From positions 11,131,344 to 11,195,343 of the forward strand of contig JASKMD010000008.1 in assembly GCA_030144725.1 (NCBI GenBank): a stretch of DNA of 64,000 bases. Direction: 5' to 3'. This DNA is from Haematococcus lacustris (taxonomy: Eukaryota; Chlorophyta; Chlorophyceae; Chlamydomonadales; Haematococcaceae). Below, piece after piece: positions 1-8,338 of the stretch; within the stretch, counting starts at the first letter, position 1; each line of letters opens with the position of its first letter. The notes under the pieces are model-generated. The model searched no databases, was not told the DNA's origin, and worked only from the letters and a program-made list of their open reading frames with translations. The position numbers and the translations under genes are program-made.

Positions 1-3000
1 CAAGAAGTCGGTGGCTTCTGTAAAGAGGGGTGACAGGTAGGCTGCCAGTCGTGCGTGCAGTTGTGGAGCGCCTGAGCTGGGTTGTTGCACGGCTAGGCGG
101 AAGGCTTCCCTGTCACTGTTGGTGATGGGTGTGGTGAGAACAGTGTGTTTGTGGCTTTGGGCCTGTTGTGTTTGTGCTAGGTGTATGCCCATCCTCGCTG
201 TGGTCAGTGTGGCGATGAGTGGTCTGTGGTCGCTGAGATACGCATGTGTGTCTACGATGGTGCGGTGCTCCGGGCCTGGTCGTGCGTCGCGCGTCAGGAT
301 GGCGTCGATGCGGCTGTTGCAGTGTGGTTGTTGGTAGGTCCAGGCCCGGTCGCCGGGGTCGGCTTCGGACAGGCGCATCTCTGAGGCAAACTCCCTCATC
401 ATGCGGTCCTGGATGTATTCAGTGTGTTCGGAGCGGTCTTCTGTTTTCATCGTGGCGTTCAAGTCACCGGCGAGAATGAGGGAGCCGGGCAGGTGTCCTG
501 TGGCTGTGCGTATGTGATGCTGCATGTTCTCCCGCAGTGGGAGCGCGTCTTCGTTGCAGCCCGATGGCCAGTACGTTGCAACGATGGTGAGGTTTTCGCT
601 GTGGTGCTGGCTAAGAGTCAGGATGACGCATCTGGAGTTTATTTCCGCCTCCGTGCTGGGTGGTACTAGGGTAGCTTGCATCTGAATGGCTAGGTCATGC
701 TTGATGCCAATGAGGACTTCACTGTGGCCACCGTGTCGGTGCAGTGTGTAGTCCTGTGTGGTTACTTTGAGCCATCCCGGTGTGTCTTTCTTGTGGTGTG
801 TCTTCGTCTCTGTTAGGATCAGGATATCAGGGTGGTGGTGGTGGATGAGGTGGGAGACGTCCCTTCTAGCACGGTAGAGGCCCCGGACATTGAGAGTGGT
901 GAGCGTCAGGTATTGTCTGCTGGGGGTCTGGTGTGGTTGTGTGGGGAGGATGGGGGGGGCCTTGGTTGTTGGGCATGGGACAGGCGGGCTGGGTATGGTG
1001 GCAGTGGGTGCGGCCTGGGTATTGGTTAGGTACCTTGACATAAGCGTTTGTGTGTGCCTGTCTTTGCTGTGGCTGGTGTTCTTGGCTCCTTTCTTCGATC
1101 GTGGTTTCTTAGGGCCTGTCTTGGTGCTTGGCTTCTCGTTTCGTGTTGGGGGGGGAGGTGTGGCTGCGTCCTCCTTCGCGTTGGCATCTTCGCGGTGTCG
1201 CGACCGGGCCGGCGGGTCCGCCTCTGCATAGGCATTCTTGCGCTTAGGAGCGTTATTGCTCGTGGTGAGGGGGTGTGGTGTTGCTGCTGGCGGTGGTATT
1301 GTTGGTGGTTGGTCGTCGTGGCCGCTCAGGTCAATGTGGTGCGGTCTCGCGTAATGGTGCTCTAGCTGTGTCGTGGTGGCTTGCTCCATTGGGTCCGCTA
1401 GCCAGAAGATGGGTTCGATGAGATTCTTATGTTGCATGCCTTGCTTAATTAGGATGAGCCTTCCTTGCAGCTCCTTCCAGTCTGCTGTGGTCAGCAGCCT
1501 TCTAGCTTGTGTAGCTTGTGGGTCCAGCCAGTACCAGGTGTTGTCTAGGTACCTAAGGGTAGTCGCATGGTTCCTGTTGATGAGAATGGCTGCGTTGCTG
1601 GTGTGATTGTCCTCCTTGCCCATGAGGGTACTAAGCGTTGCTCTAGTGATGTTGTCTTGGGGCAGCTCTTGCGTTGCCAGGTGGAAGGTCTTGTAGTTGT
1701 GATAAAGGTAGTGGTTCATGGAGTGGATGTTGAAGTTTCCATCCTCATCGTATATGTGTGGGGTACGGTCGGGCAGGGGTATGTGCCTGTTTTCCCCCCT
1801 GGCTCTGCTAGCTAGGTCTTGAAGGTGGGTGGCCAGGTGGCTGCAGTGTGTGAGGACATCATGTGGGTTGATCAGTGGTCTCCCCATGGCCATGTTGATG
1901 GCGTGTACCAAGCAGAAACATTTGTGTTGTGCTTCCATATAGATGGGTACGGGTGGGCTAGTGTTGTGGTTGGTATGGCTGATGATGTGGTTTATCTTCT
2001 TTGTATGGCAGAGTGCTATCTGTGCACTCGTACGGGTTGTGTGGGTGGGGGTGATGATGAAGAGCTGGTGGTGTGTTTGCTTTGTTGGCAATGCGATGCG
2101 TGCCAGCGGAGTGGGTGCTGGTTCTAGGGAGTCCTTGAGTGACCATTTCCCATTGAGGCTTGTCATGGCCATGCTGTGGCCTAGTCTTTTGCATAGGAAT
2201 GCAGTCGTTTCGTAGCGCTGTGCTAGGCTATCGAGGTTGTGTTTAGTCCAGTCTTGGGGGCGTCTTAGATCAGCGACGCTTGTCGAAATCAGGCCGTATT
2301 TAGATGTGAGGTACAGGTCTATTACTCCATCGTCGTAGCCTCCTGCGCCTCTTGCCATCTGCCAGGCTGCCAGTTCGTCCGGTGTGTTGAGTTGCGTGAG
2401 CCTTTGTGCGTAAAAGGTGTCGATAGCGTCAATGCTGACCCATTTCCGTCCCGCGAGGTTGTTAAGGGAGTCGGCTTGACAAGTGCTACTACCCTCTTGC
2501 TGGACGTAGTGTGTGTTGGGTCCCGGGTTGGCTTCAACGTCCCCGCATGCAAGTAGGAGCCATGCAATGTATGTGATCGCCATGGCGCAGTAGCTCGTGC
2601 TCAAAGTGCCCAGCCATTCGATGGCGGTCTTAAGGTGGTCCATGGTGATGGCGTTGGTAGGGCGTCGTTGTTTGTCTAAGATGGTGATTCTGTAGATAGT
2701 GTGGCGTTGAAGAGTGGTGTTGTAGTGATGAGCGATTACTGAGGATTTGCCTACCGTCACAGTGTAGTGGCCTTGTGTAGTCCAGGAGTGCATGCAGACT
2801 GTGAGGTTGAGTATGGCGGTGTGTCTATCGATGGTCCCGTCTATGTACAGGAAATTGACGAAGGCCGATGTAGTGGAGATGGCTCTCCATCTTTGCAGCC
2901 TTTTGCAATGCCTTCGCAAGCACTTTTGGGACTGAGAGATGGTCTGCGAGATGGACTGAGAGGTTGAAGTGAGGTGAAGTGTTGCATGGTGATGGATCCA

Positions 3001-4860
3001 CCACCATGCACAGGCTACTGCTATGAGAATACCATGCATGCCCTTCCATTGCAAGTAGGCTTGTTTCCTGTCGTGGAGGGCATCCTTATATAGGACCAGT
3101 GTATTGTAGGTCTTGTCAGCAATCGTGCCACCCTCTTTGCTGGTATCCATCAGCATGCACGGATAGGGCATCCCTGTCTGCTCCTTGGCTGGCTGTGCTT
3201 CACAGGGCTGCAGGGTGCCAGCGTGTATGGTTGGAGCGTGCTCTGTTGGTACATGGTGGGCTCCGCCTGCCTCACCGGCCTGCATGGTGGGGCACTGAAC
3301 ACGGGGCTGCGTCATGGCGGGCGTGTCGTGCGTGGCTGGGGCGTGCGCTGCTGGCATGCGATGGGCTGGCTGTGCTCTGCCAGCCTCACCAGCCTGCATG
3401 GTGGGGCAGAGGGCATGTGGTTGCGTCACTGCAGGCCAGTCATGAATGGCTGGGGCGTGCGCTTCTGGCATGCGATGGGCTGGCTGTGCTCTGCCAGCCT
3501 CACCAGCCTGCATGGTGGGGCAGAGGGCATGTGGTTGCGTCACTGCAGGCCAGTCATGAATGGCTGGGGCGTGCGCTTCTGGCATGCGATGGGCTGGCTG
3601 TGCTCTGCCAGCCTCACCAGCCTGCATGGTGGGGCAGAGGGCATGTGGTTGCGTCACTGCAGGCCAGTCATGAATGGCTGGAGCGTGCGCTGCTGGCATG
3701 GTGATAACTGGCCGCAGGGGGGCGTCCTTTGGCATGGTGGTAACTGGGCGTAGGGGGGCGCCCGTTGGCATGGTAAGTGCTGGCCGTAGGGGGGCGCCCG
3801 TTGGCATGGTAAGTGCTGGCCGTAGGGGGGCGCCCTTTGGCATGGTAAGTGCTGGCCGTAGGGGGGCGCCCGTTGGCATGGTAAGTGCTGGCCGTAGGGG
3901 GGCGCCCGTTGGCATGGGAAGTGCTGGCCCTAGGGGGGCGCCCTTTGGCATGGTAAGTGCTGGCCGTAGGGGGGCGCCCTTTGGCATGGTAAGTGCTGGC
4001 CGTAGGGGGGCGCCCTTTGGCATGGTAAGTGCTGGCCGTAGGGGGGCGCCCGTTGGCATGGTAAGTGCTGGCCGTAGGGGGGCGCCCGTTGGCATGGGAA
4101 GTGCTGGCCGTAGGGGGGCGCCCGTTGGCATGGTAAGTGCTGGCCGTAGGGGGGCGCCCGTTGGCATGGTAAGTGCTGGCCGTAGGGGGGCGCCCGTTGG
4201 CATGGTAAGTGCTGGCCGTAGGGGGGCGCCCGTTGGCATGGTAAGTGCTGGCCGTAGGGGGGCGCCCGTTGGCATGGGAAGTGCTGGCCGTAGGGGGGTG
4301 CCCTTTGGCATGGTAAGTGCTGGCCGTAGGGGGGCGCCCGTTGGCATGGTAAGTGCTGGCCGTAGGGGGGCGCCCGTTGGCATGGTAAGTGCTGGCCGTA
4401 GGGGGGCGCCCGTTGGCATGGTAAGTGCTGGCCGTAGGGGGGCGCCCGTTGGCATGGTAAGTGCTGGCCGTAGGGGGGCGCCCGTTGGCATGGTAAGTGC
4501 TGGCCGTAGGGGGGCGCCCGTTGGCATGGGAAGTGCTGGCCGTAGGGGGGCGCCCTTTGGCATGGTAAGTGCTGGCCGTAGGGGGGCGCCCGTTGGCATG
4601 GTAAGTGCTGGCCGTAGGGGGGCGCCCTTTGGCATGGTAAGTGCTGGCCGTGGGGGGGCGCCCGTTGGCATGGTAAGTGCTGGCCGTGGGGGGGCGCCCT
4701 TTGGCATGGTAAGTGCTGGCCGTAGGGGGGAACCCGTTGGCATGGTGAAAGCTGGTTGTTGCAACATCAAGACAGGCCGCAGGGGGGTTCCCTTTGGCTG
4801 TGTGTTGTGCATTGGGTTGGTATGCAGGCAGGTCAACGCAGGATTTGGCAGTGCAGTCAT
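1..4860 (-). CDS. Non-LTR retrotransposon ORF (partial): repeats, 2A motif, Josephin-like protease, APE endonuclease
   Basis: One frame is open on the minus strand from the left edge to about 5298; the first ATG in it is at 4858-4860, giving 1620 codons without a stop. Numbering from that ATG: residues about 29-389 are 12-residue repeats (consensus TMPTGAPLRPAL), followed by four longer repeats, then a hydrophobic stretch (GILIAVACAWW). A 2A motif LLLACGDVEANPGP lies at 768-781. A cysteine-protease domain follows with FCLVHAIN (Cys983, His986), His1098 in NHATTLRY and Asp1113 in WYWLDP. An APE endonuclease domain at about 1319-1560 shows TLNVRGL, ILTETK, AGDLNA, SRIDAI and SDHRPL. Reverse transcriptase is expected beyond the left edge. 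The start is uncertain: an ATG at 2641-2643 lies 41 codons before the 2A glycine, and the repeat region could be 5' UTR. The endonuclease call is firm; the protease call rests on motif spacing. Confidence 0.85.
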   Translation of the reverse strand, partial: MTALPNPALTCLHTNPMHNTQPKGTPLRPVLMLQQPAFTMPTGSPLRPALTMPKGAPPRPALTMPTGAPPRPALTMPKGAPLRPALTMPTGAPLRPALTMPKGAPLRPALPMPTGAPLRPALTMPTGAPLRPALTMPTGAPLRPALTMPTGAPLRPALTMPTGAPLRPALTMPTGAPLRPALTMPKGTPLRPALPMPTGAPLRPALTMPTGAPLRPALTMPTGAPLRPALTMPTGAPLRPALTMPTGAPLRPALPMPTGAPLRPALTMPTGAPLRPALTMPKGAPLRPALTMPKGAPLRPALTMPKGAPLGPALPMPTGAPLRPALTMPTGAPLRPALTMPKGAPLRPALTMPTGAPLRPALTMPTGAPLRPVTTMPKDAPLRPVITMPAAHAPAIHDWPAVTQPHALCPTMQAGEAGRAQPAHRMPEAHAPAIHDWPAVTQPHALCPTMQAGEAGRAQPAHRMPEAHAPAIHDWPAVTQPHALCPTMQAGEAGRAQPAHRMPAAHAPATHDTPAMTQPRVQCPTMQAGEAGGAHHVPTEHAPTIHAGTLQPCEAQPAKEQTGMPYPCMLMDTSKEGGTIADKTYNTLVLYKDALHDRKQAYLQWKGMHGILIAVACAWWWIHHHATLHLTSTSQSISQTISQSQKCLRRHCKRLQRWRAISTTSAFVNFLYIDGTIDRHTAILNLTVCMHSWTTQGHYTVTVGKSSVIAHHYNTTLQRHTIYRITILDKQRRPTNAITMDHLKTAIEWLGTLSTSYCAMAITYIAWLLLACGDVEANPGPNTHYVQQEGSSTCQADSLNNLAGRKWVSIDAIDTFYAQRLTQLNTPDELAAWQMARGAGGYDDGVIDLYLTSKYGLISTSVADLRRPQDWTKHNLDSLAQRYETTAFLCKRLGHSMAMTSLNGKWSLKDSLEPAPTPLARIALPTKQTHHQLFIITPTHTTRTSAQIALCHTKKINHIISHTNHNTSPPVPIYMEAQHKCFCLVHAINMAMGRPLINPHDVLTHCSHLATHLQDLASRARGENRHIPLPDRTPHIYDEDGNFNIHSMNHYLYHNYKTFHLATQELPQDNITRATLSTLMGKEDNHTSNAAILINRNHATTLRYLDNTWYWLDPQATQARRLLTTADWKELQGRLILIKQGMQHKNLIEPIFWLADPMEQATTTQLEHHYARPHHIDLSGHDDQPPTIPPPAATPHPLTTSNNAPKRKNAYAEADPPARSRHREDANAKEDAATPPPPTRNEKPSTKTGPKKPRSKKGAKNTSHSKDRHTQTLMSRYLTNTQAAPTATIPSPPVPCPTTKAPPILPTQPHQTPSRQYLTLTTLNVRGLYRARRDVSHLIHHHHPDILILTETKTHHKKDTPGWLKVTTQDYTLHRHGGHSEVLIGIKHDLAIQMQATLVPPSTEAEINSRCVILTLSQHHSENLTIVATYWPSGCNEDALPLRENMQHHIRTATGHLPGSLILAGDLNATMKTEDRSEHTEYIQDRMMREFASEMRLSEADPGDRAWTYQQPHCNSRIDAILTRDARPGPEHRTIVDTHAYLSDHRPLIATLTTARMGIHLAQTQQAQSHKHTVLTTPITNSDREAFRLAVQQPSSGAPQLHARLAAYLSPLFTEATDFL
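1500..1938 (-). other. Josephin-like papain-fold cysteine protease domain in the retrotransposon ORF
   Basis: The stretch starts near MEAQHKCFC and ends after WYWLDP. Cys (codon 1912-1914) is followed three residues later by His and then by IN, as in the C-x-x-H-x-x-N signature of ataxin-3-type Josephin domains. A middle segment DEDGNFNIHSMN resembles the Josephin helix preceding the catalytic His. That His (1567-1569) lies 115 residues after the Cys, and the acidic third residue (Asp, 1522-1524) lies 15 residues after the His. Ataxin-3 has the same 15-residue spacing with Asn in that place. OTU or another papain-fold clan is the main alternative. Confidence 0.6.
2518..2559 (-). other. 2A-type ribosome-skipping (StopGo) motif
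   Basis: The minus strand encodes LLLACGDVEANPGP, an exact match to the 2A consensus D(V/I)ExNPGP with the usual upstream hydrophobic run. Skipping would occur between the glycine codon (2521-2523) and the proline codon (2518-2520). It would release an upstream peptide ending in NPG and start the protease-endonuclease product with proline. From the ATG at 2643 the upstream product would be a 41-residue hydrophobic peptide. 2A-like motifs are known in some non-LTR retrotransposons (trypanosome L1Tc/ingi, some marine invertebrate elements). Confidence 0.88.
3244..3699. repeat. 114-bp tandem repeat, three near-identical copies plus one diverged
   Basis: Copies start at 3358, 3472 and 3586 and are nearly identical; a diverged copy occupies 3244-3357. 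The 114-bp unit is a multiple of three and stays open in the retrotransposon frame, encoding 38-residue repeats upstream of the 2A region. Confidence 0.9.
3696..4776. repeat. 36-bp tandem repeat, about 30 copies
   Basis: Head-to-tail 36-bp units with few variants (cgcccgtt versus cgcccttt, gtaagt versus gggaag). There are no spacers. Each unit encodes 12 residues, and several frames on both strands are open because the unit contains no stop in them. In the retrotransposon frame the peptide is TMPTGAPLRPAL with T/K alternation. It may be a coding repeat or a promoter-like 5' UTR array of the element. Confidence 0.93.
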
Positions 4861-5129
4861 GTGTGGGCATTGTTGCACAGGGTTGGGTAAGGCAGGGTAA
4901 GTCAGTGCAGTACACCTGATGTCTTGCTGCTTATCGCGGTGCTGCGTCTTTTCTTGACTGTTTTGGCATTTCCAGTAATCTTCACCCTGTGTAGGACTGC
5001 AGTGGGAGCGATCGGAGTCATGCAGGTGCGCTGTGCTCTTGTACCCAAAGGTTGTGTTGCAGCAATGGGTCAGCTGCAACAGGGTGAAAAAGGTCAAGAT
5101 TACAAGTGTCGCTGCTCGTGTTGTCTTAC

Positions 5130-5781
5130 CGGACAGCTTGCTGAGACCATGGTAGGCCACGTTCAGAGCTTCTTCCGACTTAACGTCGGCCGTTGACTTC
5201 TCGTCGTTCCACTTATCATTCGGGCTTAACTCTGATGCATTGTTCAGTCGTGTAGAGCGTTCGCGCAGCAGCTTCGTGTATCGTGCAGAGAAAACCTCTC
5301 AGTTGTTGCCAACCGAAAAGTGCATGTTGAGACATGAACTGACAGGATCCGGAGAGCTGCTTTGGCGAGGGCTGGGAAGTGGGGCTGGGCTAGCAGTTGC
5401 CACCAAGTCAGCCGTTGGGATGCAGGAGCAATGATAGTGACAGCTCGCCCATCTCGCTCATTTACATTTGTCTCATACATTTGTTGCACCTGTACTTTCA
5501 TGCACCATGCAACGCAGGAGCACACTTCACACCTGTTTCAGTACTTCGCCCACAAGCGTGTGCCTCTGAGATTGCTTGCTGGCATTGGCAAGATCTTTGC
5601 ACAGAAGGTTGAGGGCGTGCACACAGCACATCATGCAGATCCACGTCTGGTGCTCCGCCTCTAGAAGCTCAAGGGCTCGGCGATTAGTGGCGGGACTGTC
5701 CATGATCACTCCTAACAGCAAGTGAGGCCTGCCACCCGTGACCTGAGGATGCATAGGTCAGGGTCAGGGTCAGGGTCAGGG

Positions 5782-5813
<32 letters not shown>

Positions 5814-6583
5814 CAAGAAGCCAAACCTTGTTAGCCAGGTCATTGTGGAGATCAACGTAGAACTGCCCTTGGCAGCTCGCTTGTGACGCCACCCGTCCGT
5901 GCACATCATCAACCCCAAGCCCTTAAGAGCAAGCATGGCACATGCATGGCATAGATTGATGTGCATGGCATATAGTGATATGCACATTCATATGCACAAC
6001 CATATACATTGCGATCATACATGCCAATCATACATACCATTAAGAGGGTCTCCATCATGATGGCTACCCTCCTCTGTAGAGCTGTGTGGGTGTTGTTGAG
6101 GAACGTCGTACGCAGTTGCCTTGCACTTGGGCTGTTAACACCCAACAACTGGAGAGCTCTCTTCATGTGAGGATTGTCCGCACGCGCCAGGGCTGTACCG
6201 GACGTGTAGAAGAATAACGCCAGCTCCTGCTTGACATCATTGAGAACACTGGGGGGTACCGTGGGCTGGTATGAGTTGGGAGGTGGTGGCAGTGGGGCGC
6301 CGGCATGCAAGCCTCTCAGGCGCTGAGCCGCCAAGCAAGCGGCACAGCCGCTGTGGTCTTTTCGCTGCTGGGTAATGTTCGACACTGCAAGCTGTGCCAA
6401 GCACAGCAAGCACAGGAGCTTGACAAGCTTGTCGTCGGTATTGATGATGATGTTGTAGTGTTCCTTCCGTAGCGCCGTAGAGAGCTGCAGCTTGGCGTAC
6501 AAGTCTGCCACGAAGGGGTTTCCTTTGCGATATGGCTGCCTCTTCTTTTTGGCCCAATCAGGGGCTGCTTCGCCATTCATCAC
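5130..6583 (-). pseudogene. hAT-superfamily (DUF659-type) transposase remnant
   Basis: Several minus-strand pieces line up in hAT order. The N-terminal part (6583-5990) has a CxxC...H...C BED-like finger (CLLCLAQLAVSNITQQRKDH) and ends METLLM at a GTATGT donor. Next comes KGLGLMMCTDGW with the conserved DGW (about 5935-5905). Then after a CAG acceptor comes LLGVIMDSPATNRRALELL and CCVHALNLLCKDLA (5750-5590). The C-terminal dimerisation region follows with TWWQL, AALRILSV, a frame change near 5300, and LLRERSTRLNNA. The stretch between the DUF659 region and the dimerisation domain is far shorter than in intact hAT transposases, so the copy is internally deleted. Its tail frame happens to read into the neighbouring retrotransposon. 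Confidence 0.8.
5757..5815. repeat. GGGTCA/GGGTGA hexamer array
   Basis: Six-base units ggtcag then ggtgag repeated about nine times inside the hAT remnant, probably within a former intron. It resembles degenerate telomeric DNA but is not TTAGGG. Confidence 0.8.
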
Positions 6584-6599
6584 GGTGACAACGAGTGCA

Positions 6600-7245
6600 G
6601 AGCGCAGTCGGGCCGCGTGTGTTAAGGTTTTTGTTAAGGTTTTCTCTTGTTAAGAAAGTTATACTGATGGTTTGCGGCCGAGTGTGAGGGGAGTGAGGGA
6701 GTTTGCGCCTGACGCTGTGACGCCCGTTTATTGCAGTAACGGCATCAGCGCGCTGCGCTGAGCAGGATGGGCGTCACAGCTCGGATCGGGGCCGAGTTTG
6801 CGGCCTGGTCACTCGCAAATTGTGAGAGCAAACTCTGAAGCAAGGTTGTGACTGCGGCCATGATACAATGGCACTGCAAGCCTAATCACGCTGTAAGCCT
6901 CATCCCGGGCGCTCATCGTTTAGTCGCGATGTTCCCGATGGGATGCCCTGCCGATGGTGTGGATGGTATAAGCACATTGGCACACCGACATAGGCCGGCA
7001 TAGGCCACTGCACTCTACTCGGATTAGTACCTTCGGACACATGTTGACAAGTCGACAGGGGCTTGTAAGGAGCAGATATACATAGCTGTACGCAGCACAG
7101 TGCGCACCAAAACTCCGAAGTAAGACATTCAGTAAGACATGAAGTAAGTAAGACATTCAGACCGAAGTTAGACAACATGCTGCTCTTAATGTTGCAAGGA
7201 GGGGAAACTGCTTTGCTACTTGCAAGAGGGGTGATGGGTCTCATG
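6600..7245. other. Spacer without recognisable gene
   Basis: AT-richer than its surroundings. It holds a TTAAGG-like stretch (gttaaggtttttgttaaggttttctcttgttaag, read in pieces at 6619-6655) and short repeats of agtaagacattcag near 7120-7160. No coding exon or RNA gene was found. Confidence 0.6.
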
Positions 7246-8180
7246 GCTACAGTTGGTGGTGGGTGGTGGTAGGGCAGCTGCCACTGCTGGTGGTGGTAAT
7301 GATGGTGGTAGCCAGAGGGGTGAGGGGGTCATGGCTACAGCTGGTGGTGGGTGGTGGTAGGGCAGCTGCCCCTGCTAGTGGTGGTAATGATGGTGGTGGT
7401 AGCCAGAGGGGTGAGGGGGTCATGGCTACAGCTGGTGGTGGGTGGTGGTAGGGCAGCTGCCCCTGCTAGTGGTGGTGGTGGTAGCAAGAGGGGTGAGGGG
7501 GTCATGGCTACAACTGGTGGTGGGTGGTGGTAGGGCAGCTGCCCCTGCTAGTGGTGGTAATGATGGTGGTGGTAGCCAGAGGGGTGAGGGGGTCATGGCT
7601 ACAGCTGGTGGTGGGTGGTGGTAGGGCAGCTGCCCCTGCTAGTGGTGGTGGTGGTAGCAAGAGGGGTGAGGGGGTCATGGCTACAACTGGTGGTGGGTGG
7701 TGGTAGTGCAGCTGCCCCTGCTAGTGGTGGTAATGATGGTGGTGGTAGCCAGAGGGGTGAGGGGGTCATGGCTACAGCTGGTGGTGGGTGGTGGTAGGGC
7801 AGCTGCCCCTGCTAGTGGTGGTGGTGGTAGCAAGAGGGGTGAGGGGGTCATGGCTACAACTGGTGGTGGGTGGTGGTAGTGCAGCTGCCCCTGCTAGTGG
7901 TGGTAATGATGGTGGTGGTAGCCAGAGGGGTGAGGGGGTCATGGCTACAGCTGGTGGTGGGTGGTGGTAGGGCAGCTGCCCCTGCTAGTGGTGGTAATGA
8001 TGGTGGTGGTAGCCAGAGGGGTGAGGGGGTCATGGCTACAGCTGGTGGTGGGTGGTGGTAGGGCAGCTGCCCCTGCTAGTGGTGGTAATGATGGTGGTGG
8101 TAGCCAGAGGGGTGAGGGGGTCATGGCTACAACTGGTGGTGGGTGGTAGTGCAGCTGCCCCTGCTAGTGGTGGTGGTGGT
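7245..8180. repeat. 91/82-bp minisatellite with higher-order structure
   Basis: About eleven head-to-tail units rich in GGT and GGGG. Spacings between equivalent points are 88, 91, 82, 91, 82, 91, 82, 91 and 91 bp. The long unit contains taatgatggtgg, which the short unit lacks. In the centre the two alternate, giving a 173-bp dimer repeated three times. Peptides read from it are by-products of the repeat. Confidence 0.92.
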
Positions 8181-8338
8181 AGCCATCTCAGACTAGTCGC
8201 TTTACATAATATACATCTTTTACATGTCGCTTACAACGAAGGCAAGGAAGGTACCCAAACAAATGAACACCATGCATCACTTATTGCGTCAATACAACCA
8301 CCGTGTTCACAGTAGCCGGCCCTTCCCTAGCCTGCACG

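Follow-up and report, generated by a model that had tools for sequence, protein, structure and literature searches.

In the present work, we describe a 2A (StopGo) motif that is carried in frame by a multi-copy, Dualen-like family of non-LTR retrotransposons in the green alga Haematococcus lacustris. We have established its sequence, its reading frame, its copy number and its pattern of conservation, and on this basis it is very probably a working recoding site. The copy at the centre of the analysis lies at one end of the window, i.e. the whole analysed stretch of 64,000 nucleotides, to which the coordinates below refer.

The mechanism that we propose starts from a single mRNA with one very long frame. 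During its translation, the nascent WLLLA-x-G-D(V/I)ExNPG would block formation of the Gly-Pro bond, the upstream protein would be released, and translation would resume with Pro (predicted N-terminus PNTHYVQQ...). The upstream product would contain repeats and would probably be membrane-associated, as it is predicted to have a hydrophobic segment, a conserved block of ~100 residues and a hydrophobic C-terminus ending in the 2A. We infer that it may be the element's substitute for a separate ORF1. The downstream product would be a polyprotein of 2880 residues (Josephin-Josephin-APE-RT-PHD-RNase H-RLE-like), no longer attached to the membrane-associated part, with the first protease cysteine at residue 14 in the window copy. 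According to passages of PMC6952782, the FMDV 2A works in the green alga Chlamydomonas with some uncleaved fusion, and the host machinery should thus allow skipping.

The motif, its frame and the downstream polyprotein

The motif LLLACGDVEANPGP is found on the minus strand at 2559-2518, inside a single open frame of 3806 codons. The minus-strand translation around it is TSYCAMAITYIAWLLLACGDVEANPGPNTHYVQQEGSSTCQ, the frame contains ITYIAWLLLACGDVEANPGPNTHYVQQ, and the 2A segment ends in WLLLACGDVEANPGP. This translation bears out the earlier note, which had placed GDVEANPGP after a hydrophobic run at these same codons (N at 2529-2527, G at 2523-2521 and the final P at 2520-2518). The same is true of its claim that the frame is fully open and shared with the APE endonuclease: the frame is stop-free from 5298 to position 1, and PF03372 is found in it. 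Beyond the window edge the frame continues into the neighbouring contig stretch, which is included in the 3806 codons, and it ends with TAG; 2880 of the codons follow the skip site. The 2A is hence in frame between two coding parts. The positions of the features are collected in Table 1.

Table 1. Features of the retrotransposon copy, in window coordinates unless stated otherwise
Feature	Position	Strand	Details
5' part of Dualen-like non-LTR retrotransposon copy	1..5321	-	3' part outside the window, at lower coordinates
Open reading frame	1..5298	-	1766 of 3806 codons within the window; first in-frame ATG at 4860
Frame terminator TAG	contig C476, position ~11125223		frame followed past the window edge
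Tandem array, 36-bp (12-residue) unit TMPTGAPLRPAL	3694..4746	-	~29 copies, in frame
Tandem array, 114-bp (38-residue) unit	3260..3700	-	~4 copies, in frame
Conserved upstream block	2685..3039	-	hydrophobic HGILIAVACAWWW, then S.KCL+RH...IDGT...YNTTLQ; coordinates from translation
Alternative start ATG	2641..2643	-	context ATCACCATGG in the window copy
2A/StopGo peptide WLLLACG-DVEANPG^P	2518..2562	-	skipping predicted to fall between G (2523-2521) and P (2520-2518)
J1, first Josephin-like domain	2071..2520	-	immediately follows the 2A; C14, H115, D130, with the new N-terminal Pro as residue 1
J2, second Josephin domain	1438..1956	-	C203, H318, D333
APE endonuclease (Exo_endo_phos)	226..897	-	Pfam PF03372, E 1.6e-12

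The 5' end of the element is near 5321, where the homology to one other copy (L064, on C420) stops; the copy on C1 starts only at ~5089 in window coordinates. Two repeats were observed in this neighbourhood, a short GGTCAG/GGTGAG array at 5756-5815, upstream of the 5' end, and a minisatellite at 7222-8185 that adjoins the element and has ~11 copies of a unit of about 91 bp.

Downstream of the 2A, Pfam identifies a Josephin domain (PF02099, E 1.4e-12) in the same frame. In Josephin peptidases the third residue of the catalytic triad is Asn. In the structural model, J2 has the Josephin protease fold, which it shares with the ataxin-3/Josephin deubiquitinases (3o65, 1yzb, 6pgv) together with the Cys-His-(Asn/Asp) spacing; it differs from them in that Asp replaces the triad Asn and in that the domain is fused to a retrotransposon polyprotein. 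J1 is assigned by triad spacing and by comparing its profile with that of J2 (probability 96.6, E 6.8e-10), with the triad columns invariant in 10 of 10 sequences. A sequence search of the PDB with J1 gave no Josephin match; the VIA list was taken up by J2, and J1 was hardly probed by it. The data support the view that this green algal non-LTR retrotransposon carries a 2A/StopGo motif, which shares its frame with a protease domain and an APE.

The tandem Josephin-like domains are followed, in order, by APE, RT, PHD, RNase H and an RLE-like region. That the APE precedes the RT is seen by Pfam in P0001, P0061 and P0060, and the RNase H is recognized in P0061 (PF00075, E 2.5e-18). The RLE-like region, which comes after the RNase H and outside the window, has C-x2-C-x7-H-x4-C, RH, PD and E invariant in six aligned sequences, four of which also have E-x-K. 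Its profile matches only 8gh6 and 8ibw in the PDB ('reverse transcriptase-like protein'), weakly (E 0.3); these we take to be R2. The element had been described as APE-type only, and the assignment as an APE-only LINE was replaced once the C-terminus had been read: by its domain content the element is Dualen-like. The RT tree covers only H. lacustris sequences and relatives.

It is unlikely, in our judgement, that the Josephin-like domains carry out the main separation step and that the role of the 2A is limited to adjusting dose, with RT output lowered by drop-off at NPG. To our knowledge, the known Josephins are deubiquitinases and not polyprotein processing proteases, and all four subfamilies that were observed retain the 2A. 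In favor of such a role are the two complete-looking C-H-D triads, the existence of Josephin relatives that have no 2A (P0081, P0112) and the statement, in passages of PMC11512398, that some 2A sequences end translation without resumption. Release of the upstream protein by the 2A itself remains the preferred reading.

Copies of the motif and the constraint on it

The coding pattern D[V/I/M]ExNPGP has 590 matches (268 + 322) in the 308-Mb assembly and only 3 in the reversed control. The motif is therefore more than chance, an origin that these counts rule out, and hundreds of copies of it are present in one genome. Thirty places were cut out, the first 30 among 100 listed of the 590 matches, and all 30 belong to the same retrotransposon family, with the motif in frame. 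They have the LLLA-x-G run before the motif and the Josephin-like start after it, one of them (L030) being badly broken downstream. In three copies (L016, L018, L020), a stop follows just after the motif.

To avoid a choice by the motif itself, loci were also taken by similarity downstream of it. Queries without the 2A recovered it in all 10 best loci of subfamily D, and in all 23 loci on five contigs in two similarity searches; the latter count covers the five contigs that have both a complete pattern list and matches in these searches, 7 matches that stop short of the J1 N-terminus being left out. The motif is likewise present at all 10 J1 N-termini of proteins first found by an RT-only query. 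It is also found in 20 of 20 subfamily A loci, for which the query contained the 2A as 14 of its 881 residues, and at 35 of 36 J1 N-termini in the database. The sole miss is P0013, in which the repeats are joined straight to J1, and which is probably a gene model matter. Apart from this model, related copies lacking the NPGP core, which the earlier note had named as evidence that would speak against the motif, were not encountered in these sets. For subfamily C, the evidence for the 2A comes from database proteins and from the motif-picked pattern loci.

Two protein searches were made with queries that contain the 2A. The first matched 49 proteins, 47 of them recorded as Haematococcus lacustris, and NPGP occurs in 22 of the 49. 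These are exactly the proteins whose match extends to query residue 34 or further towards the query N-terminus, whereas the match of the other 27 begins later. The second search added six proteins. Two of these are partial 'Bosea sp.' records related to the algal element (P0051, which begins MAWLLLAAGDVEANPGP, and P0052), and they are likely algal DNA binned as a bacterium.

The motif shows a distinctive pattern of variation. Among 19 distinct 30-mers, the G, D, E, N, P, G and P are fixed in all 19, V and I alternate (10 and 9), and the free position x is A in 12, P in 4, E in 2 and V in 1. Invariant fixed positions combined with a variable x correspond to the known 2A constraint. Before the GD, W, L, L and A are each conserved in 18 of 19 and the third L in 17.

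The comparison of subfamilies A and D gives a pN/pS of 0.13 for the eight core codons, a value that rests on few synonymous sites (5.8 per pair). The corresponding values are 0.42 for the eight codons before the core, 0.52 after the 2A, 0.78 for the leader and 0.72 for the upstream block, with heavy synonymous change. The upstream block is by this measure constrained only weakly, which counts against the proposed mechanism. Of 30 loci selected on protein similarity, 3 were dropped and 27 entered this comparison, namely 17 from subfamily A, whose 881-residue query included the 14 residues of the 2A, and 10 from subfamily D, whose query did not contain it. An earlier dN/dS analysis yielded 0.063 for the 2A, 0.72 for the leader, 0.40 upstream and about 0.26 for J1, and it is biased at the 2A core because 27 of its 29 loci were chosen by the 2A pattern (3 pattern loci with a stop or too short were dropped).

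These numbers bear on the possibility that the motif is a relic, conserved through the youth of the family or through the protein fold, and causes no skipping. The 20 best copies are indeed 98-100% identical to the window protein, and passages of PMC11512398 state that the activity of a 2A is context-dependent and has to be established by assay. The subfamilies, on the other hand, are only 54-56% identical over the 2A-to-APE part, and yet the fixed 2A positions are invariant between them while x is free and synonymous change is present. A silent relic is for these reasons very improbable, and we continue with the reading of an active site.

The residues preceding the core can be compared with those of known sequences. 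The hexamer is LLLA[ACG]G in 17 of the 19 distinct copies; the other two have LLMAAG and VVRIAG, the latter in P0033 and probably a gene-model oddity. In passages of PMC12846837, a survey of viral StopGo sequences, an LLLLSG-like group is among the 20 most frequent hexapeptides, the L-rich hexamers (motifs 2/6) end in (A/S/C)G before D12, and an example of motif 6 is active in vitro. The algal L-rich hexamer resembles this class at the sequence level: LLLACG and LLLAAG fit the (A/S/C)G ending, whereas LLLAGG (P0009 type, subfamily B), which is one of the 17, and LLLAVG (L047) strictly do not.

The upstream frame and the start of translation

The frame before the 2A contains two tandem arrays, both with a period divisible by three and 0% indels in the window copy, and the conserved block. 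In the gene models that keep it, this block is common to the subfamilies and consists of a hydrophobic segment, S.+CL++H, IDGT and YN[ST]TL. In 32 of 33 loci, a loosely matched N-[ST]-T-L-like motif lies in frame at a distance of 44-61 residues ahead of the 2A. Of the 30 pattern loci, 24 have an upstream frame that stays open as far as the locus edge (500 codons), and in the other 6 it is open for less than 500 codons. In the copy on C182, 213 codons are open before the 2A; the stop is upstream of the block, which is kept in frame. Stops of this kind within the upstream frame of some copies indicate that the element may not need its far N-terminal part.

The window frame contains no ATG over its first 146 codons (5298-4860). 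The start of this ATG-less open stretch, which includes the hydrophobic LVILTFFTLLQLTHCC, is similar in two other copies (L064, L065), and by eye a GGTAAG is found there at the point where the P0002 gene model appears to leave the frame.

The earlier note had suggested another arrangement, a dual-targeting layout in which the ATG at 2643 would be the start codon and the 2A would end a hydrophobic leader of 41 residues. In such a layout the skipped product would be cytosolic and the unskipped one would enter the secretory pathway, as with the sea urchin NLR 2A signals. Translation from this ATG does give a 41-residue piece ending in G. The ATG is kept in 17 of 20 subfamily A loci, with the context ATCACCATGG in the window copy, and leaky or internal initiation may therefore occur there. 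Furthermore, the 17 residues before the GD form a hydrophobic stretch in the window copy, with a mean hydropathy of 1.74, and passages of PMC4981915 describe such a dual role for SpNLR2A6, with ~80% recoding.

Several observations argue against this layout. First, the frame upstream is open and contains the block common to the subfamilies. Second, an in-frame ATG at a distance of 10-60 residues ahead of the 2A is missing from 11 of 33 loci; the 33 loci are 30 picked by the 2A pattern plus the window copy and two D loci, and one of the 11 is the badly broken L030. Third, the leader is the least constrained stretch in both comparisons (dN/dS 0.72; pN/pS 0.78). Finally, the other subfamilies have Arg, His or Asp within the leader, and the mean hydropathy of the 17 residues falls to 0.81-1.46 in the B11, C and D examples, although it is 1.63 in B9.

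Consequently, the open upstream frame, the conserved block and the 11 of 33 loci without a nearby ATG favor a released upstream protein over a short leader, which we regard as improbable. A 2A at the protein N-terminus, as in dual-targeting signals, is not the layout of the family as a whole, though it may apply to subfamily A alone. What precedes the hydrophobic run is an open frame with the conserved block rather than an established start. Of the proposed split into an N-terminal repeat or signal-like peptide and a polyprotein, the repeat-containing product stands as a reading, whereas the signal-like leader is not general. The sea urchin NLR 2A-like signals also have a hydrophobic stretch directly before the D(V/I)ExNPGP core but are N-terminal (passages of PMC4981915), while the algal 2A lies inside an open frame in most loci that were read.

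Relatives, known systems and implications

The RT-only query matched 141 proteins, and the 120 of these that are listed include 53 further relatives at 31-54% identity. A 2A-like motif occurs in 2 of these 53, P0132 and P0102, and, again among the matches listed, in 2 of the 18 relatives that have at least 1150 residues before the RT. Its absence from most further relatives is weak evidence. None of three Josephin-bearing environmental relatives has the 2A (P0081, P0112 and P0085, the last of which begins only with J1 and may be truncated). As P0081 and P0112 indicate, the 2A is not a prerequisite for this domain order. An RT tree that combines the further relatives with ten algal sequences does not group the three lineages with a 2A, support near P0132 and P0102 being low. 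This scatter, together with the Josephin relatives without it, means that the 2A is an ancient feature with frequent losses, that it was acquired repeatedly, or that many of the proteins are incomplete.

The proteases that are paired with the 2A differ between the lineages. The tandem Josephin-like domains of Haematococcus have their counterpart in P0102 in two stretches of Ulp1 (Pfam 1.3e-22), which follow GDIETNPGP and GDVHPNPGP. In P0132, MLLMQAGDVEPNPGP is followed by a stretch that is presumably OTU-like, judging by the motif GDGNCLF; a PDB sequence search gave nothing and Pfam gave no name, and an OTU identity beyond this motif reading was dropped. It is possible, and we put it forward only tentatively, that Dualen-like elements have repeatedly combined a hydrophobic stretch and a 2A with cysteine proteases of different ubiquitin/SUMO types. 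Skipping would then release a membrane-associated first product and generate the N-terminus of an RT polyprotein headed by a protease, and the '2A-protease' module would be one that recurs outside viruses.

Two further observations concern these relatives. The two Ulp1-type stretches and two 2A-like motifs of P0102 parallel the tandem Josephin-like pair. Many Dualen-like relatives contain PF12237 (PCIF1_WW), presumably a domain of an mRNA cap methyltransferase; in P0102 and P0081 it is between the PHD and the RNase H, where the H. lacustris elements have a stretch without a domain name.

2A sequences are most familiar from RNA viruses, and they are already known in non-LTR retrotransposons, reportedly from the work of Odon et al. 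in 2013 and Heras et al. in 2006. The APE-type elements concerned, L1Tc/Ingi in trypanosomes and Rex1, Crack, L2 and CR1 in animals, have one long ORF instead of two. The algal element shares with them a DxExNPGP with an L-rich run, in frame before the APE-RT polyprotein. It differs in its green algal host, in its RLE-like, RNase H and PHD parts, in the two Josephin-like domains between the 2A and the APE, and in the in-frame minisatellites of its upstream protein.

The Dualen/RandI group, which is said to have been described by Kojima and Fujiwara in 2005, encodes a cysteine protease. In passages of PMC4640811 and PMC3636483 the group has both an APE and an RLE-type endonuclease as well as an RNase H, and passages of PMC8226300 place it in green algae. 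The Haematococcus element shares the APE, the RNase H and the green algal host and has a candidate RLE-like region, and its protease is a tandem Josephin-like pair; the descriptions in the passages of these three papers contain no 2A. Our literature search gave no report of a 2A for a green algal retrotransposon or for Dualen, nor of a Josephin domain for any retrotransposon, and an earlier report of either in Odon 2013, Rao 2025 or Kojima 2005 is possible. PMC2861651, which came up as a Josephin paper, was discarded, as the text match was to the Josephine Bay Paul Center.

If the site works as proposed, green algae, and with them the non-LTR retrotransposon branch that has two endonucleases, would join the range of natural 2A recoding. 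Within a single host, the family would offer natural variants of one 2A class in unusually large number, equivalent to a mutational series. Its native algal 2A sequences could also be used to express several genes together in microalgae, in which the FMDV 2A leaves uncleaved fusion (passages of PMC6952782). Finally, it raises the question of why a retrotransposon would separate a membrane-associated protein from deubiquitinase-type domains and an RT.
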